Below are positions 31,841-57,540 of a stretch of 64,000 bases of DNA, piece after piece. Position numbers and translations under genes: made by a program. Numbering within the stretch: the stretch's first letter is position 1; each line of letters starts with the position of its first letter. This DNA is from Roseithermus sacchariphilus. Its GTDB lineage: Bacteria; Bacteroidota; Rhodothermia; Rhodothermales; MEBIC09517. The stretch is taken from positions 1,960,501 to 2,024,500 of the forward strand of contig CP030158.1 in assembly GCA_003285105.1 (NCBI GenBank), given 5' to 3'. The notes below the pieces were generated by a model. That model saw only the letters and a list, made by a program, of their open reading frames with translations, searched no databases and was not told the DNA's origin.

Positions 31841-31941
31841 CCCGGGGCGCCGAAGGCGTCCGCCCTTCAGGCAACCTCATCCAGAAGTGGATCCTTTCGT
31901 GGGGAGACGAGCGATGGCCTCGGCGCGTGCTCCTCGTATCT

Positions 31942-31949
31942 TACCTTTC
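31942..31949 (+). promoter_or_regulatory. possible Bacteroidota -7 element (TACCTTTC)
   Basis: TACCTTTC within GTATCTTACCTTTCG lies 35 bases before the rmlA start, in the 144-bp gap after rmlD. It could give rmlA and the following genes their own promoter. Tentative. Confidence 0.3.
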
Positions 31950-31984
31950 GACGCTCGACCCCCGGCATCCGTCCATAGCTCCTC

Positions 31985-40372: not shown

Positions 40373-40477
40373 CGGCGGTGCACGCCGTCGTTCTGGACAT
40401 TCATAGATACCGTGGCGTATCGTGACCGGAGATCGTTTCTTGCTCCTTCTATTCACCCGTACTGCTCGCAGCGTGTG

Positions 40478-41464
40478 ATGCGCGTCGCCGTCACAGAAGC
40501 CGATCGGCTGGATCTGTCCGTGGTCATTCCTTTTCTGAACGAGGAGGAATCCATCGGGCTGCTGTGTGAGAAGGTGGCGGCTGCCCTCGATCCGATGGAG
40601 GTCCGTGCCGAAGTCATTCTGGTCGACGACGGCAGCACCGATCAGACGTTTGCGCGCGCGGCGGCCATCGCGGACCGAGATCCCCGGTTCCGCGTGATCC
40701 AGTTGCGCCGTAATTTCGGGCAGACGGCGGCCCTCAGCGCCGGTATCCGGCACGCGCGGGGCGAAGTGATCGTCACCATGGACGGAGATCTGCAGAATGA
40801 TCCCCGGGACATCGAAACGCTGCTCGACAAGATGCACGAGGGCTACGATGTCGTCATTGGATGGCGTGAGCAGCGACAGGATAAGCTGATCACCCGGAAG
40901 ATCCCCTCGATCCTGGCCAACGGCTTGATCCGGTGGGTGATGGGGACCCAGATCCGGGACAACGGCTGTGCCTTGCGTGCGTATCGGGCCGATCTCCTGC
41001 AGGCGCTGCCGCTCTACTCCGAAATGCACCGGCTGTTGCCGACGATCATGACGCTCTCCGGAGCCCGGCTGGCGCAGGTCAAAGTGCGGCATCACTCCCG
41101 TCAGTATGGAGCTTCCAAGTATGGTCTGTCGCGCATCTACAAAGTGCTGATGGATCTGCTCGCCCTGAAGTCCGTGCTCGGGCTGGTGCATCTGCCGTTT
41201 TTTGGTTTCGGGGCTGCTGCCGTGTTGTTCGGTCTGGGAGCGGGCCTCGGGTTTGTCGTGACGCTGCTGTATCTCGTAGTCGGTTTGCCCATCGTGGTCA
41301 TGGCCGGCGTCACGCTGTTGCTGAGTGCTCTGAGTTTGTTCATGCTGATGCTGGGCATGTTGAGTGAACTCATCTACCGGCAGGGACCGCTCAAACTCGA
41401 ACACACCTTGAAGATCACCACCGTGGCCCCTCGTGAGGGGGGCGCGTCCCTTCATGTCTCCTGA
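40478..41464 (+). CDS. family 2 glycosyltransferase, polyprenyl-phosphate type (active)
   Basis: A protein of 328 residues resembling dolichyl-phosphate-mannose synthase/ArnC-type enzymes. Residues 18-220 are a GT-A domain with VVIPFLNEEESI, VILVDDGSTD (D50, D51), RNFGQTAALSAGI, the metal site MDGDLQNDP (D102, D104) and DNGCALRAYR. Two C-terminal membrane helices follow (about 230-255 and 265-295). It should transfer a sugar from a nucleotide to polyprenyl phosphate at the inner membrane. ATG 40478 is chosen; an upstream GTG at 40412 is possible. The following gene overlaps by 11 bases and encodes a paralogue that has lost these aspartates. Confidence 0.9.
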   Translation: MRVAVTEADRLDLSVVIPFLNEEESIGLLCEKVAAALDPMEVRAEVILVDDGSTDQTFARAAAIADRDPRFRVIQLRRNFGQTAALSAGIRHARGEVIVTMDGDLQNDPRDIETLLDKMHEGYDVVIGWREQRQDKLITRKIPSILANGLIRWVMGTQIRDNGCALRAYRADLLQALPLYSEMHRLLPTIMTLSGARLAQVKVRHHSRQYGASKYGLSRIYKVLMDLLALKSVLGLVHLPFFGFGAAAVLFGLGAGLGFVVTLLYLVVGLPIVVMAGVTLLLSALSLFMLMLGMLSELIYRQGPLKLEHTLKITTVAPREGGASLHVS

Positions 41465-42593
41465 TTCCATGTACGACCCCCGCCTTTCTCCGGCTTCCTC
41501 CGCCACGTCCCCGGCAACGGCCGTCGGGTCCCTGGATCTGTCGGCCATCATCCCGGTGCACGGGGTAGACGGGGCGCGCGTCCGCCGCGTGATCGGGGAG
41601 TACCGGGCGGTGCTGGACACCCTGGATCTGACCTACGAGGTGATCGTCGTCGTCAGCGGCCGGGACCCCGATCTGACGGAGGCGATGACGAACCTGGCTC
41701 GCGAAGGAGCGGTGCGGGTCATTGTGCTCGGGGCCTGGCCGGGTGCCGCCACGGCGCTCTCGATCGGCTTCGCCCACAGCACCGGCCGGCTCCTGCTGAC
41801 GTTGCCGCCGCTGCATCAGGTGGCGGTCGAGGCTCTGCCGGAGTTGATCGGGGCGCTCGGGGAGCGGGATATGCTCGTGGTACGCCGGTGGCCGCGGCGG
41901 GACGGGCGGCTCAAGCAGTTGCAAACGCGTGCCTTTGCCTTCTTCCTGCGCACCACGCTGCGCCTGCCCTTCAAGGACCTGGGCTGTGGCGTGCGGCTGT
42001 TCCGCCGCGACGTGCTCGACACGGTCTACATCTACGGCGACCAGCAACGGTTCCTGCCCGTGCTGGCCGAACGGTACGGGTACCATGTGGCCGAGGTAGA
42101 CCTGCCGCAGGCCCCGCGGGGCGAAGGCGGTGGCCCTCGTGCCTCGTTCCTGCCGGCGGCCTACGTGCGGCGCTTGCTGGATCTGCTCTCGATCTTCTTT
42201 CTCGTCAACTACACCATCAAGCCGCTGCGCTTTTTTGGCCTGACGGGGCTCGTCACGTTTCTGGCCGGGACGATCATGACGCTGTATCTGGCGGCCGAGC
42301 GGGTGTTCATGGATGAGTCCCTTGCCGACCGGCCGCTGCTCCTGCTGGGGCTCCTGCTCGTGGTGCTGGGCGTGCAGCTCTTTGCGATCGGGCTGATCGG
42401 AGAGCTGATCATCTACATCCACGCCCGCAACCTCACCACTTACACCATCGAGCGGCTCGTAGGCTTCGAGGCCTCTGCGGAGGAGGATGCCGGGGCCATG
42501 TCGGCCATGTCGGGCGGCGTTACGTCCGCGTCGGATGAGGCGTCCGGTGGCGAAGCGCGAGCCCTGCACCCGGCAGCAGACCGGCCACGCTGA
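41454..42593 (+). CDS. degenerate family 2 glycosyltransferase paralogue
   Basis: A protein of 379 residues with the same architecture as the preceding GT2: a GT-A-like domain and two C-terminal membrane helices. The catalytic landmarks are changed. The DDGS site reads VVSGR (V67, S68) and the metal site DGD is replaced by PPL (P118 and L120), while downstream KDLGCGVRLFRRDV, RRLLDLLSIFFLVNY and the helices are conserved. It is therefore unlikely to transfer sugar itself and may act as a partner of the active enzyme. ATG 41454 overlaps the upstream gene; ATG 41469 is an alternative. Its 3' end overlaps the convergent VanZ gene by 74 bases. Confidence 0.85.
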   Translation: MSPDSMYDPRLSPASSATSPATAVGSLDLSAIIPVHGVDGARVRRVIGEYRAVLDTLDLTYEVIVVVSGRDPDLTEAMTNLAREGAVRVIVLGAWPGAATALSIGFAHSTGRLLLTLPPLHQVAVEALPELIGALGERDMLVVRRWPRRDGRLKQLQTRAFAFFLRTTLRLPFKDLGCGVRLFRRDVLDTVYIYGDQQRFLPVLAERYGYHVAEVDLPQAPRGEGGGPRASFLPAAYVRRLLDLLSIFFLVNYTIKPLRFFGLTGLVTFLAGTIMTLYLAAERVFMDESLADRPLLLLGLLLVVLGVQLFAIGLIGELIIYIHARNLTTYTIERLVGFEASAEEDAGAMSAMSGGVTSASDEASGGEARALHPAADRPR

Positions 42594-44037
42594 GCAGGTA
42601 GGCCGGCCCGAAGGCCAGCGCGTCGGGATGGAAGCTGAGCCATCCGAGCAGGGGGAGCGGCAAGACGGCGATCAGGAGCGCGAGCCGCCGCCGCCTGATC
42701 CGGTGCTCCTGCATCTGCCAGAGCGGAGCCAGCAGCAACCCCGTCAGCCCGAACACCAGCAGGTAGTACGCGGCCGTCCAGTACGGCACCATCGGTTCGG
42801 CCAGGTCGACGACGATCGAGCCGAGCCCCAGGGCCATCGGCAGGCTGCTCAGGATGCTCATCTCAGGGGTGATGGCGGCCGTCCGGGGATCGGGTCGGCG
42901 GTGATCGTAGACGGTGAGCCGGCCGGTGTCGTAGGAGACGACGAAGGCGACCGACGTGTCGGCATCGAAGAAGTGGGGGAGCCGCCAGGTCAGCCGGGTG
43001 CCGTTGTCGCCGGCCCGGGGCGTCCGGATGCGAATCACCAGGGCGTTGTCATCCTGTCCGACGGTGAGGTTGCGCAGCGAGGCGTTGATCGACAGCGACA
43101 CGAGCCGGGCCGGGCCGCTTTGCCGGAGGTGAGCGGGCGTCGCGACGATACCCAGCGTGAAGGCCGAGCGAGATCGGGCCGCCTCGGTGAAGCGCCGGGG
43201 GTGCTCGAGGCTCCGCAGCCAGGCCGTGCCGTCGAACCGGAGGCATCCGTCGGCAGGTGGCGGCGGGAAGGGGTGCCATGCCAGGGGCGGCAGGTTCGCC
43301 TGCACGTCGGCATAGGGAGCCGGTCCGGTTAGCGGGAACCGGGCGGCCTGGTCCATGGCGAAGGCAGAGGGGCGGGTCGGGGCGGCCAGCGAGGCCAGGA
43401 GCGAGGCGGCCGCCGGCGGGTCCAACGCATACGGCACCAGCACGACGTCGCACATCGTGCCGTGCCAGGGGCGGTCGCCGGTGGCCTCGTTGGCCAGCAC
43501 CAGCGGGTAGTCCGTGTCCCAGTTTGCCAGGCTCCAGCCCGGATCCCGGCGTCCCAGGAGCCCGCTCAGCAGGGCGAGGGTTGCGTAGACGGTCAGGATG
43601 GTTGCCAGGCGCCTGCGGCGCTGGGGCGGACCGGGCGCCGTGTAGCGGGTCCTGTACCACCGTGCCCAGGCCAGCGCTCCGATGAGGCTGCCCGTACCGT
43701 TCATGAGCACGTCCCGCAGGCTCGGGTGCCGGTCCGGCAGTGCGACCTGCAGCACCTCGACGCCCAGCGAGAGCCCCGCCCCCAGCAGCCCGGCGAGCAA
43801 GACGCCGGCGTCCGGGAAACGCCGGAGGCTACGAGCGATGAAGAACCCCAGCGGGACGAACAACAGGATGTTGAGGATCGGTTCCACCAGGTTCTCCGTG
43901 CCTACCTGCTCGAAGTAGTGTAGCGCGTGTGGCAGGCGGTCGGCGTGGCGAAAATCGAAGGGCGCCAGCGTGACGACCAGAATGGCGAGGACGCTGAGAA
44001 CCAGGCCGAAGCCGACGGGAGGGGTGCGGTAGGGCAT
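42520..44037 (-). CDS. VanZ-like membrane protein with extracytoplasmic LamG-like domain
   Basis: A protein of 505 residues, the only minus-strand gene in the polysaccharide locus. The N-terminal 140 residues have a VanZ-like fold: LVLSVLAILVVTLAPFDFR, a long LNILLFVPLGFFIAR helix, SLGVEVLQVALPDRHPSLRDVLMNGTGSLIGALA. After a helix (TILTVYATLALLSGLLG) comes a soluble domain of about 230 residues with a concanavalin-like pattern (LRFDGTAWLRS, FTLGIVATPA, LVSLSINASLRNLTVGQDDNALVIRIRT). Two or three more membrane helices close the protein. The domain probably lies outside the cytoplasm and may bind glycan. ATG 44037 starts the first helix. Confidence 0.75.
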   Translation of the reverse strand: MPYRTPPVGFGLVLSVLAILVVTLAPFDFRHADRLPHALHYFEQVGTENLVEPILNILLFVPLGFFIARSLRRFPDAGVLLAGLLGAGLSLGVEVLQVALPDRHPSLRDVLMNGTGSLIGALAWARWYRTRYTAPGPPQRRRRLATILTVYATLALLSGLLGRRDPGWSLANWDTDYPLVLANEATGDRPWHGTMCDVVLVPYALDPPAAASLLASLAAPTRPSAFAMDQAARFPLTGPAPYADVQANLPPLAWHPFPPPPADGCLRFDGTAWLRSLEHPRRFTEAARSRSAFTLGIVATPAHLRQSGPARLVSLSINASLRNLTVGQDDNALVIRIRTPRAGDNGTRLTWRLPHFFDADTSVAFVVSYDTGRLTVYDHRRPDPRTAAITPEMSILSSLPMALGLGSIVVDLAEPMVPYWTAAYYLLVFGLTGLLLAPLWQMQEHRIRRRRLALLIAVLPLPLLGWLSFHPDALAFGPAYLLSVAGLLPGAGLALRHRTPHPTRT

Positions 44038-44318
44038 GGAAGCCGGGTTTGGCCGGGGCGTGCAGCGGTGGAACGAAGTGTGTTGCTCAAGCCTCGCTGA
44101 GCGAATGTGCGCCATAGGTGGACGGTTGGTCCATGGCAGATCGCCATACCCGTAGCTACGGCGAAAAGCGATCTTTGGTGAAGCGTGCAGGACGAAGGGC
44201 CTGTGGGGTAAGAAGCATCTGTGGAATCATTTGGTCCCGCAGACGTTGAACCGAGTGCCTGTTCCAGGGTGCTGCAAGGGGCATCACCGGTGTTAGAATC
44301 TCACGATACGGACTACAC

Positions 44319-44594
44319 ATGATCGATACGACGCGCACCGTTTCGGCCAGGGCCGATGTTACGATGGCTGATCTGGACGATGAGGCCGTCCTGCTCGATG
44401 TGGTGACCGGTCATTACTTTGGCCTCAACCCCGTAGGCCGACGCATCTGGACGCTGCTGGACCAGCCAAGGCGGATCGAGGAGCTGGTGGATGCGCTGGC
44501 AGATGAATACGAGGTGCCTCGTGCCGATCTGCAACGTGATGTCGTGGCGTTCCTGGAGCGGCTCCACACCAAAGGATTGATCACCCTCTCCTGA
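44319..44594 (+). CDS. PqqD-family RiPP recognition element (lasso B1-like)
   Basis: A protein of 91 residues with the PqqD winged-helix layout: strands DVTMADLDDEAVLLDVVTG and HYFGLNPVGRRIWTLLD, then RIEELVDALADEYEVPRADLQRDVVAFLERLHTKGLI. Stand-alone PqqD proteins bind the leader of a RiPP precursor and deliver it to processing enzymes; in lasso systems this is the B1 protein. It is the first gene of the cluster, 79 bases before the asparagine-synthetase-like gene. The 281-bp gap before it shows TTTG motifs but no promoter I can defend. Confidence 0.92.
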   Translation: MIDTTRTVSARADVTMADLDDEAVLLDVVTGHYFGLNPVGRRIWTLLDQPRRIEELVDALADEYEVPRADLQRDVVAFLERLHTKGLITLS

Positions 44595-44673
44595 ACAGGC
44601 TGCCACGAGCAGGCCGGCACGGGGCTATCTGCACGATGCTATCTGGCGATACACTGGGTTCGGGAGACGACGC

Positions 44674-46740
44674 GTGAGCGGCATAGTAGGGGTTTTTCAT
44701 CGAGATGGCGCTCCGGCCCGGCCGGACGAGTTGGAGCCGATGCTGGCCGCGATGGCACATCGCGGTCCTGATGGGATGCACCAGCACCTCGACGGACCCG
44801 TGGGCATGGGGCACGCCATGTTGTACACGACCCCGGAGTCGCTCCATGAACGGTTGCCGATGACCGATCCGAGCGGTCGTTACCTCCTGACCGCGGATGC
44901 TCGCGTCGATAACCGGGAGGAGCTGGCGCGCCGGCTCGGGTGGCCTGCGGGACGACTCACGGATGCGGTTCCGGATAGTCAGTTGATTCTGGAGGCGTAC
45001 AAGCGCTGGCAGGAGCGCGCCCTGGAATACATCCTGGGTGACTTTACGCTGGCTGTCTGGGACCGGATCGAACGACGGCTGGTGCTGGCTCGCGATCATC
45101 TGGGCATCCGTGTGCTGTACCTCTACTGTGCTCCTGATCTGCTGGTATGGGGCACGGAGATCAAGGCTGTACTGGCCCATCCACGGGTGCCCCGCTCCGT
45201 CAACGAGGCCCAGCTGGCCCGCTACCTGGCCGACGACTTTTCGCATCGCACCGAGACGGTCTTTCAGGGCATCGAGCGCGTTCCGGCGGCTACGATGGTG
45301 GTCGTCGAGCCCGGCCGGAGACAGCAGCGCACCTACTGGGAGTTGTCGATCCCTCCCGAAGACCCGTCCCTCAAAACTCCGGAAGACTATGTGGCGGCGT
45401 TTCGGGAGCATATGATGGAAGCCGTCCGCTGCCGTCTGCGCAGTGCGTATCCCGTAGGAACGCAACTCAGCGGGGGGCTCGATTCCTCGGTGGTGGCTGT
45501 TGCCGCGCGATGTGTTTTAGCGCAGACGGATCCGGCGGCGGCGTTGCGGACGTATTCTACCGTATTCGAGCGCGTCCCGAAGTCGGACGAACGGCCCTAC
45601 ATTGAGGCCGTGCTGGCAACCGGCGGTTTCGATCCGCGCTTCGTAGCAGGGGATGTTCCTGGTTTCATGGCCTGGCAGGATACGTTGTGGCGCTACGAGG
45701 ATGAGCCGCTCGTCAACCCCAACTACTACCTGACGTATGGCCTCAATGAACGGGCCCGGGCCGACGGGACGCGGATCATGCTGGGCGGTTTTGACGGCGA
45801 TACCGTGGTAGGCTACGGTCTCGAACGGTTCGCGGAGCTGGCCCGGCAGGAAGACTGGGCCGCGTTCGTGGGTAACGCCGACGCCGTTGCCACGCGCCGC
45901 CAGTGGGGCCCTCGGCGAGCCCGAGCCTTCTACTTCGAACGTTATGGCGGGTGGTATCTGGAAGATCTCGTGCGTCAAGGCCGCTGGTTGCGCTGGTGGC
46001 GGAACGTTACGGCGGTGGCCCGAGCAGCGGGGATGTCCCGGCGCTGGTTGGCGGTGCAGTATGGTGTTGATTCGCTGGCCAGGCATCTGATGCGCCGCTC
46101 GCAGGATGTCGTATCGGATGCGCCGGATCTGCTTCGGGAGGAGACTATAAAGCGCTATGGACTACGCCAAAAGCGCACCCCGATTGTCCGGAAGGCAGAT
46201 TTTTTTTCGGGTGATCTGCGCGATCTTCATCTACGTAAGTACGAGAACCCGTTCTTTTCCATTGGCCTGGAAGGCATCGAGCGCGCCTACGCAGCGTTCG
46301 GCATCGAAGCCCGGCATCCGTTCTTCGATATGCGGCTCGTGCAGTTCTGCCTGGGCATTCCGCCCGCCTGCAAACTGCGCGAGGGTTGGACCCGCTGGAT
46401 CCTGCGCGCAGCCTTTCGGGACTTCCTGCCGGCCATCGTCGTCGATCGCCCGCAAAAAGCCAGCCTGGCTCACAACTTCGTGTTCCAGGTCGGGCACGTC
46501 GAGAAAGAGGCGTTCGCCGGTGCGCTGAACACGGTGCTCGAGGAGGGTGCCGGCGGCCTGCTGCAGGCGGCGCCCGTGCGGAGTGCGTACGAACGGATCC
46601 GTCAGGGCCGTCCCGAGAGCGGCGATATCGGGCGCTTGTCCCGCGTGATGCTGGTTGCCGAGTGGCGCCGCCGCCATCCTGCGGTCGGCAACGCCGTGCA
46701 GCGCGCCACGCCGATGCCTTCTGGGACAACCGTGCATTAG
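44674..46740 (+). CDS. asparagine-synthetase-like macrolactam synthetase (lasso C-like)
   Basis: A protein of 688 residues from GTG 44674. It has the N-terminal class II glutaminase fold (SGIVGVFHRDG, HRGPDGMHQHL, GDFTLAVWD) and a C-terminal asparagine synthetase domain with the pyrophosphate loop SGGLDSS (S266-S272). The N-terminal Cys nucleophile of AsnB (MCGI) is Ser here (MSGI), so glutamine hydrolysis should not occur. Loss of this Cys is expected for lasso cyclases, which adenylate an Asp or Glu side chain and close a ring with the core's N-terminal amine. PqqD upstream and a precursor downstream support this role. A role in polysaccharide amidation is the main alternative. Confidence 0.88.
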   Translation: MSGIVGVFHRDGAPARPDELEPMLAAMAHRGPDGMHQHLDGPVGMGHAMLYTTPESLHERLPMTDPSGRYLLTADARVDNREELARRLGWPAGRLTDAVPDSQLILEAYKRWQERALEYILGDFTLAVWDRIERRLVLARDHLGIRVLYLYCAPDLLVWGTEIKAVLAHPRVPRSVNEAQLARYLADDFSHRTETVFQGIERVPAATMVVVEPGRRQQRTYWELSIPPEDPSLKTPEDYVAAFREHMMEAVRCRLRSAYPVGTQLSGGLDSSVVAVAARCVLAQTDPAAALRTYSTVFERVPKSDERPYIEAVLATGGFDPRFVAGDVPGFMAWQDTLWRYEDEPLVNPNYYLTYGLNERARADGTRIMLGGFDGDTVVGYGLERFAELARQEDWAAFVGNADAVATRRQWGPRRARAFYFERYGGWYLEDLVRQGRWLRWWRNVTAVARAAGMSRRWLAVQYGVDSLARHLMRRSQDVVSDAPDLLREETIKRYGLRQKRTPIVRKADFFSGDLRDLHLRKYENPFFSIGLEGIERAYAAFGIEARHPFFDMRLVQFCLGIPPACKLREGWTRWILRAAFRDFLPAIVVDRPQKASLAHNFVFQVGHVEKEAFAGALNTVLEEGAGGLLQAAPVRSAYERIRQGRPESGDIGRLSRVMLVAEWRRRHPAVGNAVQRATPMPSGTTVH

Positions 46741-46818
46741 GTATGGCCGACCCGGCTATTGTAGCAGGGTTACACCGCCTCCTGCGCGGCCCCCCTGATC
46801 ACCGAAACCGATAACCCC

Positions 46819-46837
46819 ATTCGTGATCATCACGAAT
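46819..46837. promoter_or_regulatory. 19-nt palindrome upstream of the precursor gene
   Basis: ATTCGTGATCATCACGAAT is a perfect inverted repeat with 8-bp arms around TCA. It lies 36 bases before the precursor ATG, in the gap after the synthetase gene. It could be an operator for a dimeric regulator or a hairpin in the mRNA leader; it has no T-tail and is not a terminator. Confidence 0.5.
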
Positions 46838-46863
46838 ACGTCACACCACCCCTAACCATTTAC

Positions 46864-46869
46864 GAGGTG
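46864..46869 (+). promoter_or_regulatory. ribosome-binding site of the precursor
   Basis: GAGGTG, four bases before the ATG at 46874. Strong Shine-Dalgarno sites are rare in this window, so its presence here suggests efficient translation of the precursor. Confidence 0.55.
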
Positions 46870-46873
46870 CTTC

Positions 46874-47101
46874 ATGAAGCAGTACGACACACCCCGTCTC
46901 ATCGAGTACGGTGAGGTACACAGCCTGACGTTCGCCTACGGTATCAACGGAGCCGAGGACTTTGTGTTTTCGGATCTGGACAGCGACGGCGAGTTCGATC
47001 CCGGCGAACCGACGGCCCCGACGCCCGATCTGCCGGGTTACTCGGGTTCGCAGCCCGGCTGCCTTTCGCCGGGTGGTGTGCCCTGCACTCCCAACCCCTG
47101 A
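46874..47101 (+). CDS. lasso-like RiPP precursor with EF-hand loop
   Basis: A peptide of 75 residues. The leader Y4-x2-P7-x-L9-x3-G13-x5-T19-x matches the lasso leader pattern YxxPxLxxxGxxxxxTx at every fixed position. Cleavage after F20 would give a core starting A21 with E28 and D29 at positions 8 and 9, the normal ring acceptors. The core would be 55 residues, far longer than the usual 15-25. Residues 34-45 (DLDSDGEFDPGE) form a canonical 12-residue EF-hand loop: acidic at 1, 3, 5, 7, 9 and 12, Gly at 6, Phe at 8. A Pro-rich tail with Cys63 and Cys71 follows. Two hairpins directly follow the stop codon. Confidence 0.85.
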   Translation: MKQYDTPRLIEYGEVHSLTFAYGINGAEDFVFSDLDSDGEFDPGEPTAPTPDLPGYSGSQPGCLSPGGVPCTPNP

Positions 47102-47116
47102 GACGGGTAGGTTCCT

Positions 47117-47142
47117 CGTGTATCCGGTCGTACGGGTACACG
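47117..47142 (+). other. stem-loop directly 3' of the precursor
   Basis: Arms CGTGTATCCG and CGGGTACACG pair over ten positions (one G-U) around a 6-nt loop. It has no U-tract and abuts the intrinsic terminator, so it may protect the precursor mRNA 3' end. Confidence 0.6.
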
Positions 47143-47144
47143 CA

Positions 47145-47180
47145 GCAAAAACCCCGGGTAGTCATGCCCGGGGTTTTTGC
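47145..47180 (+). terminator. intrinsic terminator between precursor and kinase genes
   Basis: A perfect 14-bp stem (arms GCAAAAACCCCGGG and CCCGGGGTTTTTGC) with an 8-nt loop; the T-run lies inside the second arm. It should terminate most transcripts after the precursor and, being symmetric, could work in both directions. Downstream genes would then be read by read-through or a separate promoter. Confidence 0.88.
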
Positions 47181-47298
47181 TGTTCTATCGGTATGTGCCG
47201 GGCGTAGACGTTCGTGGCGGAGCAGAGGCTTACGGGCGTGGATCTCCGGTTGTGGGTTTATTGTTTCTCCATCGGAGCCGATAAAAGGGGGGTTGGGG

Positions 47299-48225
47299 AT
47301 GGGCTCATCACAAGATCGGATCATGCATTTCTACCGCGCCTTCGGGCTTGCCATTGCGTCGGAAATCGAACTGCCGGAATTGCCGGTGAACGATGAGGGA
47401 GAACCTGACCTGTGCATTCGCAAGGCCCCCCTGTCCATCGAGGGCACGCTGGAACGGGGGCATCGTGTCGTCGGTACGTACGAAGCGTTTGGCAACATCT
47501 GGATCGATCGAGGGCGTGAGATCGTCATAGATCCCCATCCATCCATCGATCCGGCGAAGGTGCGCGTGGTGGTGCTGGGTCCGTTGCTGTCCATTGCGCT
47601 TCGCCAGCGAGGCTACATCGTGCTCCATGGAGGGTGTGCCGTGGTCCGGGGCCAGGCCGTGTGCTTCCTGGGGGACATGGGAGCCGGCAAGTCGACGACG
47701 ACGGCCGCGTTCTACAACGCAGGTTATTCCATCATGTCGGACGACGTGGTGGCGATCCGGGAGGAGGGGCGCCAGTTGCTCGTCTACCCCGGGTACCCCA
47801 GTATCAAGCTGCGCCCGGATGCGGCTCCGCACGTGCTTCACGACGGCGAGGAGGCGCCCTGGCTCTATCCCGAGGGCGTCCGGCGTCTCAAGCAAGCGGC
47901 TGCGTCGTTCCCGGACCGTCCCTGTTCTCTGCGCAAGGTGTATCTGCTGGGATGGGGGCCTGCGCTTTCCGTGGAGCCGGCCGGTGCGCAGGTAGCGTTG
48001 ATCAGCGTGCTCAAACATACCCGGGCGCTGCCCCACCTCGTGGATGCCGAGTACCGCACCCGGCATCTGCGCCAGAGCCAGCGACTGGTTCGGCGCGTGC
48101 CGGTAGCCCATCTGCGCCGCCCCCGCGACCTTGCCGTCCTGCCCGATGTCATTCGGGCGGTCGTAGAGGATGTGCAGTCCACCACGGGGCCTTCGGTGGC
48201 GTGCGTCAACGAAAGGAACCCCTGA
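47299..48225 (+). CDS. HPr-kinase-like P-loop protein (lasso kinase-like)
   Basis: A protein of 308 residues. The C-terminal half has the HprK fold with Walker A GDMGAGKST (125-133), then YSIMSDDVVAIREEG, which resembles the catalytic Asp region of HPr kinases. The N-terminal half (FYRAFGLAIASEIELPELPV) lacks the HprK regulatory domain and matches the pattern of RiPP-linked kinases. In paeninodin-type lasso clusters a related enzyme phosphorylates the C-terminal Ser of the peptide. The precursor here ends in Asn-Pro, so the target would have to be another residue (for example S57, S59 or S65). ATG 47299 follows an AAAAGGGGGG tract; ATG 47323 is an alternative. Confidence 0.85.
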   Translation: MGSSQDRIMHFYRAFGLAIASEIELPELPVNDEGEPDLCIRKAPLSIEGTLERGHRVVGTYEAFGNIWIDRGREIVIDPHPSIDPAKVRVVVLGPLLSIALRQRGYIVLHGGCAVVRGQAVCFLGDMGAGKSTTTAAFYNAGYSIMSDDVVAIREEGRQLLVYPGYPSIKLRPDAAPHVLHDGEEAPWLYPEGVRRLKQAAASFPDRPCSLRKVYLLGWGPALSVEPAGAQVALISVLKHTRALPHLVDAEYRTRHLRQSQRLVRRVPVAHLRRPRDLAVLPDVIRAVVEDVQSTTGPSVACVNERNP

Positions 48226-48239
48226 TAGCCACCGCTGCC

Positions 48240-50111
48240 GTGCGTATTCAGCAGAAAGGTCGAGAGGTACTGAATCAGCTTGCCCTCGTGCGGCCGGCGT
48301 TGGGCCTGATCTGGTCCTCGGCACGCGGATGGACCGTGATCTGGTTCGGGTTGCTGCTGCTACAGGGCGCCATTCCGGCCGGCATCGTGTACATGACCAA
48401 GGCCGTCGTCGATGCGGTGGCCGCCGTCGTGGGGGCGGGCGCCAGCGTGGATCTGGCCGGGACGCTGGCGATGCCGGTGCTGGCCATGGGAGGGTTGTTG
48501 CTCGCCCGGCAGCTCGTCGGCAGTGCCGCGCAGTACGTCAACACGGTGCAGAGCGAACTGGTGACGGACTTTGTCAAGGACCTGATCCATGCGAAGGCCG
48601 GGTCGGTGGATTACGGGTTCTACGAGTCGGATCGCTACTACGATCTCCTGGAACAGGCCAACAGCCAGGCCAGCGGAAGCGCGCTGGCGCTGTTGCAGAA
48701 CCTGGGCGGGTTGCTTCGCAGCGGGATTACGTTCGTCTCGATCGCGGCGCTGCTGATGACCTATAGCCTGTGGTTGCCGCTGGTGCTGGGCATCAGCACC
48801 ATTCCGGCGTTCGTGATCCTGGTGCGGCACAACCGGTATCATCACGACTGGTGGGAGCGCACCACGGCGGACCGTCGTCGTGCGAAGTACTACGACATCA
48901 TGTTAACCCAGCAAGCGGCCGCTGCGGAGGTACGCCTTTACAACCTCTCGGAGGTCTTTCGGGAGGCCTACCAGGCGGTTCGACGGCGGCTCCGCGCCGA
49001 GCGCCTGGCCCTGCTGCGCCGGCAGATGGCGGCGGGGCTGGGCGCCTCGCTGGTGGGGTTGGTCGTGACGGCCGGCACCATGGCCTGGATCGGGTGGAGG
49101 GCCGTGCTGGGGCTGGCCACACTGGGCGATCTGGCGCTCTTCTATCAGGCCTTCAACCAGGGGCAGAGCCTCATGGGGGCGCTCCTCAACAACATGGGGC
49201 AGATCTACACCAATACCCTTTTCATTCAACACCTCACCGACTTCCTCGATCAGGAAGCCCGGCTCATCGCGCCCGCCCGGCCCGTTCCCTTCCCGACCCC
49301 GATCCGTCAGGGCATCCGGTTCGAAGGCATCACCTTCCGCTATCCGGGGGCGGAGCGTCCGGCGCTGGACGCCTTCGACCTGGAACTCCCTGCTGGACAG
49401 ATCACGGCCATCGTGGGGGAAAACGGAGTCGGCAAGAGCACACTCATCAAGCTGCTCTGTCGTTTCTACGACCCGGAAGCCGGGCGGATCACCGTGGACG
49501 GCATCGATCTGCGTGATTTCGATCCGTGGGACCTGAGGCGGCATCTGTCCGTGATGTTTCAGTTTCCCGTGCGCTACCAGATGACGGCGCGGGAAAACAT
49601 TACGCTGGGGGACACCGAGCGGCCGGCCGATCTGGAGGCCATCCGGGGTGCGGCCCGCGAGGCCGGAGCGGATGAGTTCATCGAGCAAACGGCCCGTCAG
49701 TACGAGACATTGCTGGGGCGATGGTTCGCCGGGGGGACCGAACTCAGCGGCGGCCAGTGGCAGCGCATCGCCCTGGCTCGTGCCTTCTGGCGTCAGGCCC
49801 CCGTGCTGATCCTGGACGAGCCGACGAACTTCATGGATGCCTGGGCGGAGACCGAATGGGTGCGTCGCTTCCGTCGGCTGGCCCACGGACGGATCTCGCT
49901 GATGATCACCCATCGCTTCACCAGCGCCATGTATGCCGATGTCATCCACGTCATGGATCACAGCGGGATCGTGGAATCGGGTACGCACGATGAACTGGTA
50001 GCGCTCGGAGGGCGTTATGCAGCATCATGGAACGAACAGATGCAGGCACGCCGCCCGGACAAAGAGGCGTCCGCCGTGGAGACCGTGCCGCCCATCCGGC
50101 AGGACGCATGA
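48240..50111 (+). CDS. ABC exporter, fused permease-ATPase (lasso D-like)
   Basis: About 623 residues from GTG 48240; an upstream CTG at 48222 spaced from GAAAGGA is an alternative start. The N-terminal 320 residues hold about six membrane helices (VIWFGLLLLQGAIPAGIVYMTKAVVDAVA onward). The ATPase domain has Walker A GENGVGKST (K399), signature LSGGQWQRIALARAF (from L502) and Walker B VLILDEPTNFMDAWAE. There is no C39 peptidase domain, so it cannot remove the leader itself. In this context it should export the mature peptide. It follows the kinase gene by 14 bases and its stop overlaps the next start. Confidence 0.9.
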   Translation: MRIQQKGREVLNQLALVRPALGLIWSSARGWTVIWFGLLLLQGAIPAGIVYMTKAVVDAVAAVVGAGASVDLAGTLAMPVLAMGGLLLARQLVGSAAQYVNTVQSELVTDFVKDLIHAKAGSVDYGFYESDRYYDLLEQANSQASGSALALLQNLGGLLRSGITFVSIAALLMTYSLWLPLVLGISTIPAFVILVRHNRYHHDWWERTTADRRRAKYYDIMLTQQAAAAEVRLYNLSEVFREAYQAVRRRLRAERLALLRRQMAAGLGASLVGLVVTAGTMAWIGWRAVLGLATLGDLALFYQAFNQGQSLMGALLNNMGQIYTNTLFIQHLTDFLDQEARLIAPARPVPFPTPIRQGIRFEGITFRYPGAERPALDAFDLELPAGQITAIVGENGVGKSTLIKLLCRFYDPEAGRITVDGIDLRDFDPWDLRRHLSVMFQFPVRYQMTARENITLGDTERPADLEAIRGAAREAGADEFIEQTARQYETLLGRWFAGGTELSGGQWQRIALARAFWRQAPVLILDEPTNFMDAWAETEWVRRFRRLAHGRISLMITHRFTSAMYADVIHVMDHSGIVESGTHDELVALGGRYAASWNEQMQARRPDKEASAVETVPPIRQDA

Positions 50112-51223
50112 GAGGGATGACGGACCGCCACGCCTCGAGCGATCATGCCGTGGACCGACCTGCGTTTCAGGCGGTGGTGCTGGCTGCTCGGACCGTCCTG
50201 TCCGAAGCGGAGCAGGAACGATTGCGGTGTCTGGCAGCGGGGCCGCTGGACTGGAACGAGGTGGTGTGGTTGACGGGATACCATCAGGTAACGCCGCTCG
50301 TTTTGCGCAACCTGGAGCGCTACGTACGGGCCGCCGTTCCGGGCCGTCACCTGCGTGTGTTACAGGCAGAAACGCGTCGTATTGGCGTGCAGGGGCAATT
50401 CCTCCTGCAGGAACTGGGGCGCTTGATGCAGCGCTTCGAGGCGGCCGGCCTGCCGATGCTCGTGCTCAAGGGTCCGGTCATCGCACAGGTGGCCTACGGA
50501 CATCTCGGGCTACGGGCCTTCAAGGACATGGATATCCTCGTGCGTCCGGCGGATTATCCCGCGGTGCGCGCGTTGCTCGAACGGGAAGAGTACGTCCCCT
50601 TTCCGCAGGTGGCAGAACGGGCGCGCTGGCAACAATGGCTGCATCGCTGGTATGTGCGCCAGGTGCCGTTCATGCGGGGAGTCAAGACGTTCTATGTAGA
50701 CCTCCATCTGGCTCCGCTTCCCGCGCTGTACTATTTCCCGCTGGACGTGGAGACGTTGATGGAACGCGGTTCCAGCGAATCTATCGGACGGTTCGCTGTG
50801 CCGGTTCCGAAGCTGGAGGATCACCTCCTGATCCTGTGCTATCACGGCGAGAAAAACCGATGGGAACGCCTCAAATACGTCTGTGATCTGGCGGAACTGC
50901 TGAGGCGTCATGAGGACCGCATCGATTGGGATGAAATCGAAACCGTGACGCGCCGCATTCAGGGGCGGCGTATCGTGGGAATGGCCCTCTGGCTGGCCCG
51001 TGAGCTGATGGACGCTCCGGTACCGCCGGCCTTGCTGGCCCCGGTCCGGACGTCGCAGGCCGTGCGTGACCTGGGCAGCGAGTTGGTCCGGCGTCTTGCC
51101 GAACAGCGTGACACCGGCTTGTTGCCTTTTTCGGAGCGCGTCGCCCTGCACTGGCACCTTCAGGACTCGATCCTGAACAAACTGCGCTATGCGTTCTTTT
51201 CGATGGTTCGAACCATGTCTTGA
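50108..51223 (+). CDS. nucleotidyltransferase-family protein (PF14907-like), RiPP-linked
   Basis: About 371 residues; ATG 50108 overlaps the exporter stop as ATGA, and ATG 50117 is an alternative. The family signature is MLVLKGPVIAQVAYGHLGLRAFKDMDILVRPADYP, with the D140-x-D142 metal pair, followed by TFYVDLHLAPLP carrying the third acidic residue. It is related to the protein at 32884 in layout and motif. Genes of this family occur in many lasso clusters with HPr-type kinases, where a nucleotidyl transfer to the phosphorylated peptide or a carrier has been suggested; the reaction is not established. It is the last gene before a 368-bp gap. Confidence 0.82.
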   Translation: MRGMTDRHASSDHAVDRPAFQAVVLAARTVLSEAEQERLRCLAAGPLDWNEVVWLTGYHQVTPLVLRNLERYVRAAVPGRHLRVLQAETRRIGVQGQFLLQELGRLMQRFEAAGLPMLVLKGPVIAQVAYGHLGLRAFKDMDILVRPADYPAVRALLEREEYVPFPQVAERARWQQWLHRWYVRQVPFMRGVKTFYVDLHLAPLPALYYFPLDVETLMERGSSESIGRFAVPVPKLEDHLLILCYHGEKNRWERLKYVCDLAELLRRHEDRIDWDEIETVTRRIQGRRIVGMALWLARELMDAPVPPALLAPVRTSQAVRDLGSELVRRLAEQRDTGLLPFSERVALHWHLQDSILNKLRYAFFSMVRTMS

Positions 51224-51591: not shown

Positions 51592-54000
51592 ATGTACGGG
51601 GATCGCAGCAACCATCCGGGGTTTCCCCAGCGTCATCCGGGCCTGCCGCCCATGCCGCCCGTGCCGGGCACGAACGGCCGGGCCGGCTGGTACCGTTCCG
51701 GCAAGCAGCAGGTCGAGCTGGTCATCGACCTGCTCTACCGGCGCCGCTGGAGCATCCTGATGGTGTTCCTGCTGGTGGTGGGCGGCACCGCCGCCTACAC
51801 CTTCACGCGCGTGCCGCAGTACCAGGCGACGAGCTACGTCATGATCGACCTGGCGCAGACCGGCGGGCGGGGCACCTCGTCGGCGAGCGGGATGATGCCG
51901 GGCGTGGCCGGGCAGAGCAGCAACCTCTTTGCCACGGCCCGATCCATCAGCAGCGAGATCCAGCTGCTGCAGATCTCGGATGAACTCCGCAGCCGGGTCT
52001 ACGACCGCTTCGAGGCCATGCGCGAGGACACCGTCGATGGCCGGCCCGTGCCCCGTGGCACCGTCAGCTTCGGCGAGTTGCGCGGCGGCAACAACATCAT
52101 CCAGATGACCGGCACCAGCGCGCGCCCCGAGGATGCCGCCATTCTGGCCAACCTCTACGCGCAGGAGTACGTGCTCCTGACGCGGGAGTCCAACCGCAGC
52201 TACATCACCTCGCTGCGGAAGTCCCTCGAAGAACGGGAGCGCCAGCGCCGGGCCGAGCTGGACGAGATCGAGGCCCGCATGCAGCGGTACGTCATCGAGA
52301 ACGGCGCCGTGAACCTGGACCAGGGGGCCATGGGCCTCGTCATGCAGATCGCCAATCTGGAGTCGGAGCTGGACAAGGCGCAGATCGAGTTGCAGGCCCG
52401 CCGGAAAAACCTGGCGACGCTGGAGGAGGAGCTGAAAACCACGGACGAACGGGCGCTGACGCGCATGACGTCGAACGCGGACGCGCGCATCCAGCAACTG
52501 CAGACGCGCATCGCGGAGCTGGAGGCCCAGCGATCGGCCATCCTGCTCAACAACCCGGAACTGCGCGAGAACCCCACCGAAACCCCGTCCTCCGTGGACC
52601 AGCAGCGGCTGGCCAACATCAACCAGAGCATCCAGACCCTGCGGCGGGAGCTCACCGAGCTGACCGAGCAATACCTCCAGGAGGTCGAGGCCACCGAAGG
52701 CAACCGCGATGGGCTGACCTTCCTGGTCAGCAAGCGCCAGCAGGTCAATGTGGCGCGCCACAAGGTCGACTCGCTGGAGACGCAGGTGAGCCAGATCCAG
52801 AACCGGCTGGCCGAGTACGAAAAGGAGATGGACCGCGTGCCGCAGCAGACCATCGAGTATGCCCGGCTGGAACGGGAGCGGCTGCATGCGGAGCAGATGT
52901 ACAACTACATCGTCAACCAGCTCCAGCAGGCCCGCATCCAGGAAGAAGCCGAGCCGGGCTACGCGCGCATCCTGCGCACCGCCACGGTCCCCTCCGAGCC
53001 GGTCTACCCGGACAAGCCGCGCAACCTGATCCTGGGGGCGTTCCTGGGACTGCTCTTCGGGCTGGGGCTGGGCATCCTCCGCGATAAGCTGGACGGCCGC
53101 ATCTTCAAGCCGGATCAGCTCCGGGACAAAGGGTATACCGACCTCGGGATTATTCCCAACCTCAAGCCGCTGATCAAGGAGGATTTCCAGAAGCGGGAGT
53201 TTCTGGAGTACCGCGGCAAGACCTACGCCACGAGTCTGGTGACGCTGTTCAACCCGATGTCGGCGCCGGCCGAGGCATACCGGCACGTACGGACCCACCT
53301 CAAGCATCTCTCGCCCGAGGCGGAACCCCGGACGATCCTCGTCACGAGCGCGAGCCCGTCGGAAGGCAAGTCGCTCAACGCGGCCAACCTGGCGATCACC
53401 ATGGCGCAGGCGGGCAAGCGCACGCTGCTGATCGACGCGGACCTGCGGCGGCCGCAGCAGCACCGGCTGCTGGGGGCCGAGCCGGCGCCCGGGCTGGCGG
53501 AGATCCTCCACGGGAAGGTGGAGTTCAGCGGAGATCTGCTCCGTACGGACATCGACCACCTGTATCTGATGGTGGCCGGAAGCTGCGCGATGGAGCCGGA
53601 CGAGAACGAGCCGTCGCTGCATCCGGAGGAGCCCGTCTTCAAGCCGGCCGAACTGCTCAACTCGCCGCGTATGGAGACGCTGCTGGAGACGGCGGCCGAG
53701 GCCTTCGACGTGGTCATCATCGATTCCCCGCCGGTGCTGGCCACGGCCGATCCGGCCATTCTGGCCCCGCTCTGCGATGTCACGGTGATCGTGGTACGGG
53801 CCGGTGAGACCCGCGAGGCCGAACTCGACCAGGCCGTCGAGGCGCTCACGCGCGTCCGGGCACGCGTCGGGGGGATTCTCTTCAACGGCTTTGCGCTGGA
53901 GATGGCCTACGGGACCAAGTACCGGTACAAGAGCTACTCCAAGTACGGGCCGTACTCGAAGTACGGCTATTACGGCTACCGCAAAAAGACCCCGGCCTGA
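51592..54000 (+). CDS. Wzc-type polysaccharide co-polymerase and tyrosine autokinase
   Basis: A protein of 802 residues. The Wzz domain is framed by two membrane helices (SILMVFLLVVGGTAAYTF near 60 and LILGAFLGLLFGLGLGIL near 480), with a long periplasmic coiled coil between them. The cytoplasmic BY-kinase has Walker A SEGKS (K593), Walker A' TLLIDADLRRPQ and Walker B VVIIDSPP. The last 30 residues contain ten tyrosines (YRYKSYSKYGPYSKYGYYGY), the autophosphorylation cluster. It should control polymer length and export through cycling of oligomers. It is the first gene after a 368-bp gap and likely begins a new transcription unit. Confidence 0.95.
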   Translation: MYGDRSNHPGFPQRHPGLPPMPPVPGTNGRAGWYRSGKQQVELVIDLLYRRRWSILMVFLLVVGGTAAYTFTRVPQYQATSYVMIDLAQTGGRGTSSASGMMPGVAGQSSNLFATARSISSEIQLLQISDELRSRVYDRFEAMREDTVDGRPVPRGTVSFGELRGGNNIIQMTGTSARPEDAAILANLYAQEYVLLTRESNRSYITSLRKSLEERERQRRAELDEIEARMQRYVIENGAVNLDQGAMGLVMQIANLESELDKAQIELQARRKNLATLEEELKTTDERALTRMTSNADARIQQLQTRIAELEAQRSAILLNNPELRENPTETPSSVDQQRLANINQSIQTLRRELTELTEQYLQEVEATEGNRDGLTFLVSKRQQVNVARHKVDSLETQVSQIQNRLAEYEKEMDRVPQQTIEYARLERERLHAEQMYNYIVNQLQQARIQEEAEPGYARILRTATVPSEPVYPDKPRNLILGAFLGLLFGLGLGILRDKLDGRIFKPDQLRDKGYTDLGIIPNLKPLIKEDFQKREFLEYRGKTYATSLVTLFNPMSAPAEAYRHVRTHLKHLSPEAEPRTILVTSASPSEGKSLNAANLAITMAQAGKRTLLIDADLRRPQQHRLLGAEPAPGLAEILHGKVEFSGDLLRTDIDHLYLMVAGSCAMEPDENEPSLHPEEPVFKPAELLNSPRMETLLETAAEAFDVVIIDSPPVLATADPAILAPLCDVTVIVVRAGETREAELDQAVEALTRVRARVGGILFNGFALEMAYGTKYRYKSYSKYGPYSKYGYYGYRKKTPA

Positions 54001-54191
54001 GCGTGCCGGAGTTGGGTGCTTCGAGCGGGGCGGCTGTATGCGCTCCCGGAGGGCCGGTCATCGTACCGGCCCTCCCGATGTCGGCCCCCTTCGCCCCCGG
54101 TGTGCGCTCGCAGGGGCCCTCTCGTCCCACGGACGACGCCACATGCAGGCCCGTCCTTAAGAAACCGTTCAGCCGGTCGAAACGCAGGAGC

Positions 54192-54707
54192 ATGAAGAAC
54201 GCCGCACGTATCTGGGTACTCGTCCTGCTCGGGATGGCCGGGCTGCAGGGGCCGGAGGCCCGGGCCCAGGAGTTTGGCCGCATCGGAGATTATGAGATCC
54301 AGGGTGTGCCGTACGTCGTGTTCGCCAAGGTCGGCGAGCCCACGGTGCAGGTGTATGTGGTCGGCACGGCCGGGACGGGCCTGTACGAGGTGGGGGCGTC
54401 GACGGACCTGGTGCGGCTGTTCACCTTTGCCGGGGGTACCGTGCCGGCCAACACCCGCACGGTCCGGCGCGAGGTGACCGTGCGGGTGTATCGCCTGCAG
54501 GGCGGCGTGCGCCAGGTCGTCTACGAAGCCCCGGCGCTGGAGATGATTTCCCAGCCGGGCGGGACACCGGCCCTGCAGGACGGCGACGTGATGGTCATCG
54601 AGGCGGTGGAGGAGCCGAAACAGCGCTTCACCTGGCGCGAAGGGCTCCAGATTCTGACCTCGGCGGCCTCCATCGTCTTGCTCATCGATCGGCTGCGCCG
54701 GCTGTAA
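54192..54707 (+). CDS. SLBB-domain exported protein
   Basis: A protein of 171 residues with a signal peptide (IWVLVLLGMAGLQGPEARA). The middle has an SLBB-type beta-grasp pattern: VQVYVVGTAGTGLYEVGASTDLVRLFTFAGG, then VTVRVYRLQGG and PALQDGDVMVIEAVEEP. A C-terminal hydrophobic segment (LQILTSAASIVLLIDRLRRL) may anchor it. SLBB domains form the periplasmic wall of Wza-type export channels. This protein lacks the Poly_export domain of Wza, so it may be an accessory ring subunit. It lies between the Wzc kinase and the ABC transporter. Confidence 0.7.
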   Translation: MKNAARIWVLVLLGMAGLQGPEARAQEFGRIGDYEIQGVPYVVFAKVGEPTVQVYVVGTAGTGLYEVGASTDLVRLFTFAGGTVPANTRTVRREVTVRVYRLQGGVRQVVYEAPALEMISQPGGTPALQDGDVMVIEAVEEPKQRFTWREGLQILTSAASIVLLIDRLRRL

Positions 54708-56677: not shown

Positions 56678-57520
56678 ATGTTGATGACATTGAGTGGACT
56701 TGACAGGAAACCTCAGGTGTTTTTGAGCAGGCTTATGGCTCTTGTGCCTGGTCTGTGGATTGATACGCCAGCAGTGTTTGTACTGTCGACAGGCAGAACG
56801 GGCACTGAAACACTAACCCGATTGCTTGACTTGCATGATTCTATTGATGCTTATCATGAGCCCCATCCGCAACTTCTTGTTGAGCGCAAGAAAGCACGTC
56901 TAGAAGTATATGCCAATCCGAAAAGATATCAGCGTATTTTTTGTCATTCAAGGGCGGCTCTAATTTTGAAGTCGAGGATGCGTGGTAAATTGTATGCGGA
57001 AACATCGGCACGTTTGACCTTTTTTGCGCCAGTAATATCATCGCTGATGCCTAATGCTAAATTTGTATATATGCACAGGCATCCAGGGGATGTTGTGCGT
57101 TCGGGAATGAGGCGGGGATGGTATGTCAATCATCCAGCAGATTATGCGCGAATTGAGCCGGGTCCACAGGAAGAAGCCCATCGTCATTGGCATTCATGGG
57201 GGGCGTTTGAGAAGATTTGTTGGTACTGGGATGCATATAATCGCTTTGCGCTGAACTTTATGGATTCGATGCCTGATAACAGAATATTTGTAATGCCTTC
57301 AGAGATGCTATATCAAGGAAGGGGTGTCGGGACGCTCTTTGAATTCATGGGTTTAGATAAACCTGATGATCAAAAAATTGAAGACGTGTTGCGTCATAAA
57401 TACAATAAGCAAACCAAATCATCATTTCCTAAATTTGATGATTGGGATTCTGAAATGAAGCAGACTCTTTATATGCTTGCCGGAGATACTATGCGGCGAC
57501 TCGGGTATCCTGTGATGTAG
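56678..57520 (+). CDS. sulfotransferase-family protein in an AT-rich island
   Basis: A protein of 280 residues with the PAPS 5'-phosphosulfate loop STGRTGTET (37-45) and the 3'-phosphate motif YMHRHPGDVVRSGMRRGW, which place it in the sulfotransferase superfamily. It should transfer sulfate from PAPS to a glycan or other acceptor. Base use differs sharply from its neighbours: in the 60 bases from 57301 only 26 are G or C, and codons ending in A or T dominate. The gap before it (56560-56677) is AT-rich too. It is probably a recent acquisition. ATG 56684 is an alternative start. Confidence 0.85.
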   Translation: MLMTLSGLDRKPQVFLSRLMALVPGLWIDTPAVFVLSTGRTGTETLTRLLDLHDSIDAYHEPHPQLLVERKKARLEVYANPKRYQRIFCHSRAALILKSRMRGKLYAETSARLTFFAPVISSLMPNAKFVYMHRHPGDVVRSGMRRGWYVNHPADYARIEPGPQEEAHRHWHSWGAFEKICWYWDAYNRFALNFMDSMPDNRIFVMPSEMLYQGRGVGTLFEFMGLDKPDDQKIEDVLRHKYNKQTKSSFPKFDDWDSEMKQTLYMLAGDTMRRLGYPVM

Positions 57521-57540
57521 ATGTTAAGGTGTGAGAAAAG

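Follow-up and report, generated by a model that had tools for sequence, protein, structure and literature searches.

A probable lasso peptide cluster in a polysaccharide locus of Roseithermus sacchariphilus, with its candidate leader peptidase gene elsewhere in the genome

Can a peptide cluster that lies inside a polysaccharide locus and carries no leader peptidase gene make a lasso peptide? The question is raised by six genes of Roseithermus sacchariphilus (Bacteroidota; Rhodothermales), designated B1, C, A, K, D, and N, which are consecutive and intact on the plus strand of a 64,000-nucleotide stretch of DNA (contig CP030158.1, positions 1,960,501 to 2,024,500; hereafter the window) and lie within a polysaccharide locus. 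In our view, this cluster very probably makes a very long lasso peptide, which a B2 leader peptidase encoded at a distance would release. To the reading as a whole, that is, a lasso pathway with its leader peptidase gene outside the cluster, belonging to a phosphorylated-lasso branch that recurs in polysaccharide loci, together with the full mechanism proposed below, we assign a probability of about 0.72.

The original prediction, made from the letters alone, had described the six genes as a lasso-like cluster of the ribosomally synthesized and post-translationally modified peptide (RiPP) type with a tailoring kinase, and this description is well supported by the cyclase score, the RiPP recognition element (RRE), the leader and core of the precursor, the His-Lys-Asp-Asp residues of K, and the presence of B2 elsewhere in the genome. 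All six genes were recovered by Pfam and NCBIfam scans in the order claimed (Table 1), the start of N overlapping the stop of D by 4 bases. C clears the NCBIfam lasso-cyclase model NF033535, and across six aligned C proteins, its SGGLDS ATP motif is conserved and Ser2 invariant. The N-terminus of C reads MSGIVG... and is devoid of the N-terminal glutaminase cysteine of asparagine synthetase B. A second C was not matched in the genome at E<=1e-3. B1 stays below the cut-off of NF033536 (lasso_PqqD_Bac; 71.6 bits vs 80), and the closest PDB structure (1.8e-18) is 5v1u, TbiB1, a lasso B1 protein.

The precursor A reads MKQYDTPRLIEYGEVHSLTF in its leader and AYGINGAED FVF...GSQPGCLSPGGVPCTPNP in its core. 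The leader (residues 1-20) shows the marks of lasso leaders, namely Y4DTP7 (Y4xxP7), G13, and T19-F20 with threonine at position -2. The core comprises the remaining 55 residues (21-75) with a net charge of -9; E28 and D29 are core Glu8 and Asp9 and thus fall within core positions 7-9 as candidate ring acids, and Cys43 and Cys51 of the core are located near the C terminus. The lasso_cyano model (NF033528, 35 positions) covers residues 2-32, i.e., the leader plus core residues 1-12, and its core-start pattern A.G.....DF.F is matched by A up to core residue 12. Because this match is the sole one in the genome at E <= 1, and because the same kind of open reading frame (ORF) occupies the same place in relatives, A is more than a chance ORF. 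Downstream of A, the segment 47120-47190 folds with -47 kcal/mol (shuffle mean -18.8, z -10.1), and comparable hairpins occur 3' of A in four relatives (loci L038, L056, L047, and L050). A consensus terminator scan did not list this hairpin, which would allow more A than K, D, or N to be produced. A sigma-70 scan, uninformative for this bacterial group, gave 0 promoter-like sites.

Relatives of the cluster (genomes, loci, and families carry our own labels G, L, and f) were retrieved through C, so that the counts given here describe one branch rather than lasso clusters at large. NF033535 was matched at E <= 1e-100 in 29 of 99 genomes of the same order (Rhodothermales), in 24 of them above its cut-off. 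A first contig scan with the C sequence alone gave no match; a scan with a C alignment led to 79 named loci, mostly of cyanobacteria. In the 64 loci where C is flanked by 5 kb or more on each side, the genes found within 8 kb of it are K (64), B1 (62), B2 (52), D (50), and N (41). Since the usual order among these relatives is B1-B2-C-A-K-D-N, the location of the precursor after C, previously regarded as an oddity, is normal in this branch. The possibility that homologous clusters consistently lack a precursor, named beforehand as fatal to a RiPP role, is not borne out, as 103 of the 113 locus entries show a leader-like ORF no more than 3.5 kb from C. L065 (an orphan B2 without cluster) is part of this tally, as are L119 and L158; these two are duplicates of L038 and L053, and neither the locus counts nor the trees of C and B2 include them. 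Among 147 precursors of the window and its relatives (distinct and anchored; identical copies and one without anchor were excluded), Asp or Glu is present at core positions 7-9 in 114, compared to a mean of 45 and a maximum of 61 in 1000 shuffles. The seeds of the leader search had been chosen by a pattern containing the threonine, which accounts in part for Thr at -2 in 144/147 precursors but has no bearing on the acid count. Lasso-type C and K proteins together with leader-like ORFs were also seen in three records labelled as archaeal (L138, Methanobacteriaceae; L151, Natronoglomus; L154, Halorientalis), and lasso-type C and K without a leader match in L125 (labelled Euryarchaeota).

B2, the gap that the original prediction had overlooked, is absent from positions 27001-64000 of the window, and the interval of about 80 bases between B1 and C is the slot which B2 occupies in L038, L043, and L056. 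The genome consists of one 4.81 Mb contig, and its only PF13471 match lies at C1:3726713-3727027, 1.72 Mb from the cluster. The protein encoded there scores above the lasso B2 model NF033537 (58.7 bits, cut-off 33) and retains the cysteine and the HAWV motif. Across the order, PF13471 was found in 28 of 29 C-positive genomes, the lone exception being 83% complete, compared to 7 of 70 C-negative ones. In Rhodothermus genomes, B2 is likewise distant from C or on another contig, the lasso-type clusters having no local B2, and a B2 phylogeny of 102 proteins, built on few columns and containing some long branches, unites the orphan B2 of the window genome with six Rhodothermus orphans in one clade (100/99). 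The simplest reading of these sequences is a single lineage of unlinked B2 that would act in trans. A CYTH gene beside the orphan B2 was not found at the other B2 loci examined. PF13471 proteins are also encoded in seven genomes without a strong lasso-cyclase match (G018, G029, G032, G039, G072, G081, and G090). The Rhodothermus clusters (family f3; L034-L037 and L041) are arranged K-C-A(2-3 copies)-D-B1 and have lasso-type leaders with WxxP; their cores, e.g., GxCWYGKxGG..YDADLGP.TLSDCR and SGWGxPPGLP.., carry no Asp/Glu at positions 7-9, and they may or may not be lassos. A second lone PqqD-like RRE is present in the window genome at G000:C1:4081956-4082156 (L185 7939-8274, minus strand). 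It was rejected as a second lasso cluster, as a pattern search over 18 kb gave no leader-like ORF, and neither C nor B2 was seen among the listed ORFs beside it, which were judged by eye and not by profile search.

The cores of the 147 precursors are 14 to 56 residues long, those of 38-56 residues forming a second group; a single entry of 133 residues results from a run-on frame. In the set of long cores, from which nine loci with long cores of other types were removed manually and the Rhodothermus cores through the Asp rule, those with Asp8/9 (n=36 including the window) contain exactly two cysteines in 29 cases and none in 7. A C-terminal serine, the residue modified by known lasso kinases (PMC8498205 and PMC9266682), occurs in 0 of these 36 long cores compared to 37 of 96 short ones. 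K of the window keeps by pattern the histidine, the P-loop lysine, and the Asp-Asp pair, the four kinase residues named in PMC9266682; the strict pattern matched 60 of 103 K proteins, and the motif is claimed for the window K only. As these residues are retained while the C-terminal serine is missing, K is, by its motif, probably active on another site, and what its real target is becomes a question in itself. In 34 of 35 long cores, [GDNH][ST] is followed by Asp/Asn within 1-3 residues, and the window core has GSQPGC at the corresponding place, before the first cysteine; Ser39 in this motif would be our guess for the acceptor. Two patterns drawn up post hoc serve as leads only: the core-start score of the window was reached by 12 of 20000 shuffles, 75 of 20000 with Asp9 fixed, and 4 of 96 short cores, and the tail pattern by 236 of 20000 shuffles, 17 of 35 long cores, and 0 of 96 short cores. 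N fits the nucleotidyltransferase family PF14907, its closest relatives being the N proteins of L038/L119 and L043, and D shares 58-59% identity with its counterparts in L038 and L043 and has no peptidase family among its domain matches. A second PF14907 protein (31837-34083, 748 aa), in which the family is confined to the C-terminal half, is encoded in the polysaccharide block.

The mechanism that we propose follows what is known of these families with respect to ring closure, phosphorylation, glycosylation, and export. B1 would bind the 75-residue A via its YxxP leader, K would phosphorylate a serine of A, and N would attach a nucleotide or a sugar there. B2, acting in trans from 1.72 Mb away, would cleave after T19-F20, whereupon C would link Ala1 to core Asp9 (or Glu8), with the 46-residue loop and tail threaded through the ring. 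D would export the product, and a disulfide between the two cysteines of the tail may form extracellularly.

The neighbourhood of the cluster is that of a polysaccharide locus. The part of the predicted setting that concerns the GT2 genes upstream and Wzc downstream holds; SLBB is recognizable through homologues only, and a gene announced as YjbH received no Pfam support in the genes scanned. Wzc beside N is the only TIGR01007 match in the genome, and the SLBB-like gene is conserved 3' of Wzc in relatives. PF10531 (SLBB) was matched by 2 of 4 aligned members (best E 1.5e-4) and not by the window protein itself, whose structure model (pLDDT 44.6) was too poor for use. The block also contains rmlB/rmlD-like genes and an NKWYS capsule protein, and at 56678-59822 a sulfotransferase gene, a gene of the nitroreductase family, and a polysaccharide pyruvyltransferase gene follow in series. 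By this row of genes, the polymer may be sulfated and pyruvylated.

Table 1 Features of the lasso-type cluster and the adjoining polysaccharide genes in the window
Feature	Position	Strand	Support
Two GT2 glycosyltransferases, upstream of cluster	40412..42593	+	PF00535 8.2e-33 and 5.7e-8
VanZ-domain protein, between GT2 genes and B1	42520..44115	-	PF04892 1.8e-15
B1, PqqD-like RRE (leader binding)	44319..44594	+	PF05402 4.2e-25
C, lasso cyclase, asparagine-synthetase-like, GTG start	44674..46740	+	PF00733; NF033535 583.6 bits, cut-off 525
A, 75-aa precursor	46874..47101	+	NF033528 30.1 bits, 3.5e-7, cut-off 33
Hairpin between A and K, A-/T-rich ends, probable terminator/attenuator	47142..47183	+	folding z -10.1
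K, HprK-like kinase	47299..48225	+	PF07475 2.7e-5, below cut-off; HGG...GDMGAGKST...SDD
D, MsbA-like ATP-binding cassette (ABC) exporter	about 48240..50111, start uncertain (48222 to 48240)	+	PF00005 3.3e-33
N, PF14907 (NTP_transf_5) nucleotidyltransferase	50108..51223	+	PF14907 2.1e-51
Wzc-like chain-length/tyrosine autokinase, next to N	51592..54000	+	TIGR01007 138.9 bits, cut-off 108
SLBB-like small export protein	54003..54707	+	31-33% identical to L038, L043, L056 homologues
Second MsbA-like ABC transporter, polysaccharide block	54754..56559	+	PF00005 5.8e-31, PF00664 9.2e-10

That the gene set co-occurs with exopolysaccharide (EPS) genes elsewhere, as the original prediction had asked, was confirmed in that it adjoins Wzc in two other Rhodothermales families and in many cyanobacteria. 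Directly upstream of B1, the loci L038 and L043 of family f9 and L056 of f12 have Wzc, the SLBB-like gene, and a PF00953-type GT4 gene (Pfam on L038 GT4 only). In the Nostocales-type loci L100, L104, L105, L107, and L109, B1 is preceded at about 1.5-5 kb by a divergently oriented Wzc gene, and GT1 glycosyltransferase genes follow N in L100, L104, L105, and L109, the four that were scanned downstream. Of 30 cyanobacterial genomes, 12 have Wzc no farther than 10 kb from C, compared to 0.76 expected by chance; in the Rhodothermales genomes G000, G008, G021, and G046, the C-Wzc distance is at most 6.5 kb, with a chance of 0.003-0.007 each. Of the 55 loci with long flanks, 17 belong to the long-core set, and Wzc is close by in 10 of these compared to 3 of the other 38 (Fisher p 1.2e-4). 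Since the cluster branch recurrently sits inside polysaccharide loci, the product probably acts at the cell surface. A link between the product and the polymer, including the matrix-bound or glycan-associated product suggested originally, remains a guess. A bolder version, in which giant lassos with a tail disulfide, phosphorylated at an internal conserved serine and glycosylated there by N, are a widespread working part of EPS assembly in Rhodothermales and Nostocales, anchoring or capping the polymer, with a trans-acting leader peptidase in one Rhodothermales lineage, appears rather unlikely to us.

The rival that survives best accepts the lasso cluster and regards its location as functionally meaningless, lasso and polysaccharide genes both being variable, horizontally moved modules that share hot spots; we give it a little less than an even chance. 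It is favoured by the spacing of C and Wzc in the 13 of 29 Rhodothermales genomes that have both on one contig, which is below 7 kb in 4 and 30-205 kb in 9 (in 14 of the other 16, C and Wzc are split between contigs, and 2 are without a TIGR01007 match), and by the 7 of 17 long-core loci with full flanks that have no Wzc within 10 kb. The adjacency, however, is far above chance in two phyla and occurs in differing arrangements, with Wzc downstream in the window, upstream in L038, L043, and L056, and divergent upstream in Nostocales. In the bacillar relatives, a patchy distribution with numerous gains and losses would suit shared hot spots, whereas the joint up-regulation of EPS and lasso genes in P. 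alginolyticus speaks against them (both PMC13381572).

A linear or partly processed RiPP that is phosphorylated and glycosylated, for which C would make another bond or none and in which the long acidic core itself would be functional, we hold to be improbable. The 55-residue core with its charge of -9 and the missing local B2 would agree with such a product, and linear polyphosphorylated peptides (LPPs) with the same RRE-K-N-D set are described for Bacillota in PMC13381572, but C is intact and above the lasso-cyclase cut-off, and Asp at core 8/9 is enriched throughout the family. LPPs, moreover, have no C according to that paper, and their leader YxxPxVLxHQxIxFETxxS does not fit A.

Quite improbable, in turn, is a decaying lasso cluster that has lost B2 and whose product is no longer made. 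Such decay could explain why B2 is gone from the B1-C interval when L038, L043, and L056 keep it there, as well as the long branch of the window C; it is hard to reconcile with six open frames, intact motifs, a preserved hairpin behind A, and a B2 present in trans in an arrangement common to Rhodothermus. That C is an EPS amidotransferase acting on a glycan and A an incidental ORF is scarcely credible, for although the location in an EPS locus and the existence of other Asn-synthetase-like enzymes in EPS systems (model TIGR03108) would suit it, C clears the lasso-cyclase model and stays under the cut-off of all XrtA/EPS amidotransferase or HPr-rel-A models (TIGR03108 191 bits, cut-off 817; TIGR04352 31.8, 200; TIGR04353 30.4, 35), and leader-like ORFs accompany C in 103 of the 113 entries, so that the glycan-acting Asn-synthetase relative once named as a refutation failed.

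Several points weigh against the reading as a lasso pathway with a distant leader peptidase in a branch tied to polysaccharide loci. The core is much longer than that of characterised lasso peptides, it ends ...CTPNP and is thus without the C-terminal serine that known lasso kinases phosphorylate, and no product has been detected so far. The window C forms a long branch without supported placement in the C tree. Homology of the whole core to the long cyanobacterial cores was tried and rejected, since 930 of 1998 shuffled window cores did as well as or better than the real one against a profile from which the window had been excluded; as this profile fails to recognize the window core, common descent with those cores is not established. 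A common neighbourhood of the orphan B2 genes was also rejected, nothing being shared save B2 itself and its antisense frame, and the second lone PqqD (C1:4081956) could be the true partner of the orphan B2. Finally, many of the EPS-linked loci are close kin, and the counts are therefore not independent by descent.

Lasso peptides are mostly viewed as antibiotics or signals; that a kinase-bearing branch has repeatedly settled among the polysaccharide genes of bacteria that are not related gives a testable argument for a role in structure or at the surface. Genome miners could score clusters without a local B2 as broken; the set described here looks complete when the whole genome is considered. 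The theme of lasso clusters in polysaccharide loci has already been published: for Bacilli, a 2026 paper describes both lasso clusters at capsule loci and LPPs, whose function it does not settle (PMC13381572). The features that appear to be new are the B2 encoded in trans and the long core with a tail cysteine pair and no C-terminal serine; in the part of the search results seen, no paper was found on such clusters in Rhodothermales or in cyanobacterial EPS loci, nor on an unlinked lasso B2.

Among known systems, the cyanobacterial clusters of the lasso_cyano (NF033528) and lass_lactam_cya (NF033535) type show the same order, B1-(B2)-C-A-K-D-N, and the window shares with them a cyclase above cut-off and a matched leader and core start; it differs in the 1.72 Mb distance of B2, an A that is 3 bits under the model, and a core which as a whole is not recognized by the long-core profile. 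With clusters of the paeninodin and pseudomycoidin type (PMC8498205, PMC9266682), the window has the His-Lys-Asp-Asp residues of K as well as N, B1, C, and D in common, whereas it lacks the C-terminal serine and the local B2 and has a core of 55 residues. The capsular lasso and LPP clusters of Bacilli, which belong to another phylum, likewise combine an RRE, an HprK-like kinase, an NTP transferase, and an MsbA-like exporter with polysaccharide genes; the atypical bacillar clusters have B2 and a SipW-like peptidase (PMC13381572), whereas B2 is unlinked in the window genome. A SipW-like peptidase did not turn up among the genes scanned, no model search having been aimed at SipW. Unlike LPP clusters, the window has a cyclase, and its leader differs by eye from the LPP motif. 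The class IV lasso peptide pandonodin has two tail cysteines as well, and a tail-tail disulfide would be possible in the window core, where it is putative. Pandonodin has 33 residues in all, compared to the 55 predicted here, and its tail of 18 of these 33 residues is the longest one quoted in a 2026 review (PMC13352647), so that the long cores would be larger than the lassos for which sizes are given there. In the case of citrulassin, PAD is unlinked according to PMC12971885, and a required lasso enzyme is thus likewise encoded elsewhere; there it is a tailoring enzyme, whereas in R. sacchariphilus it would be the leader peptidase.

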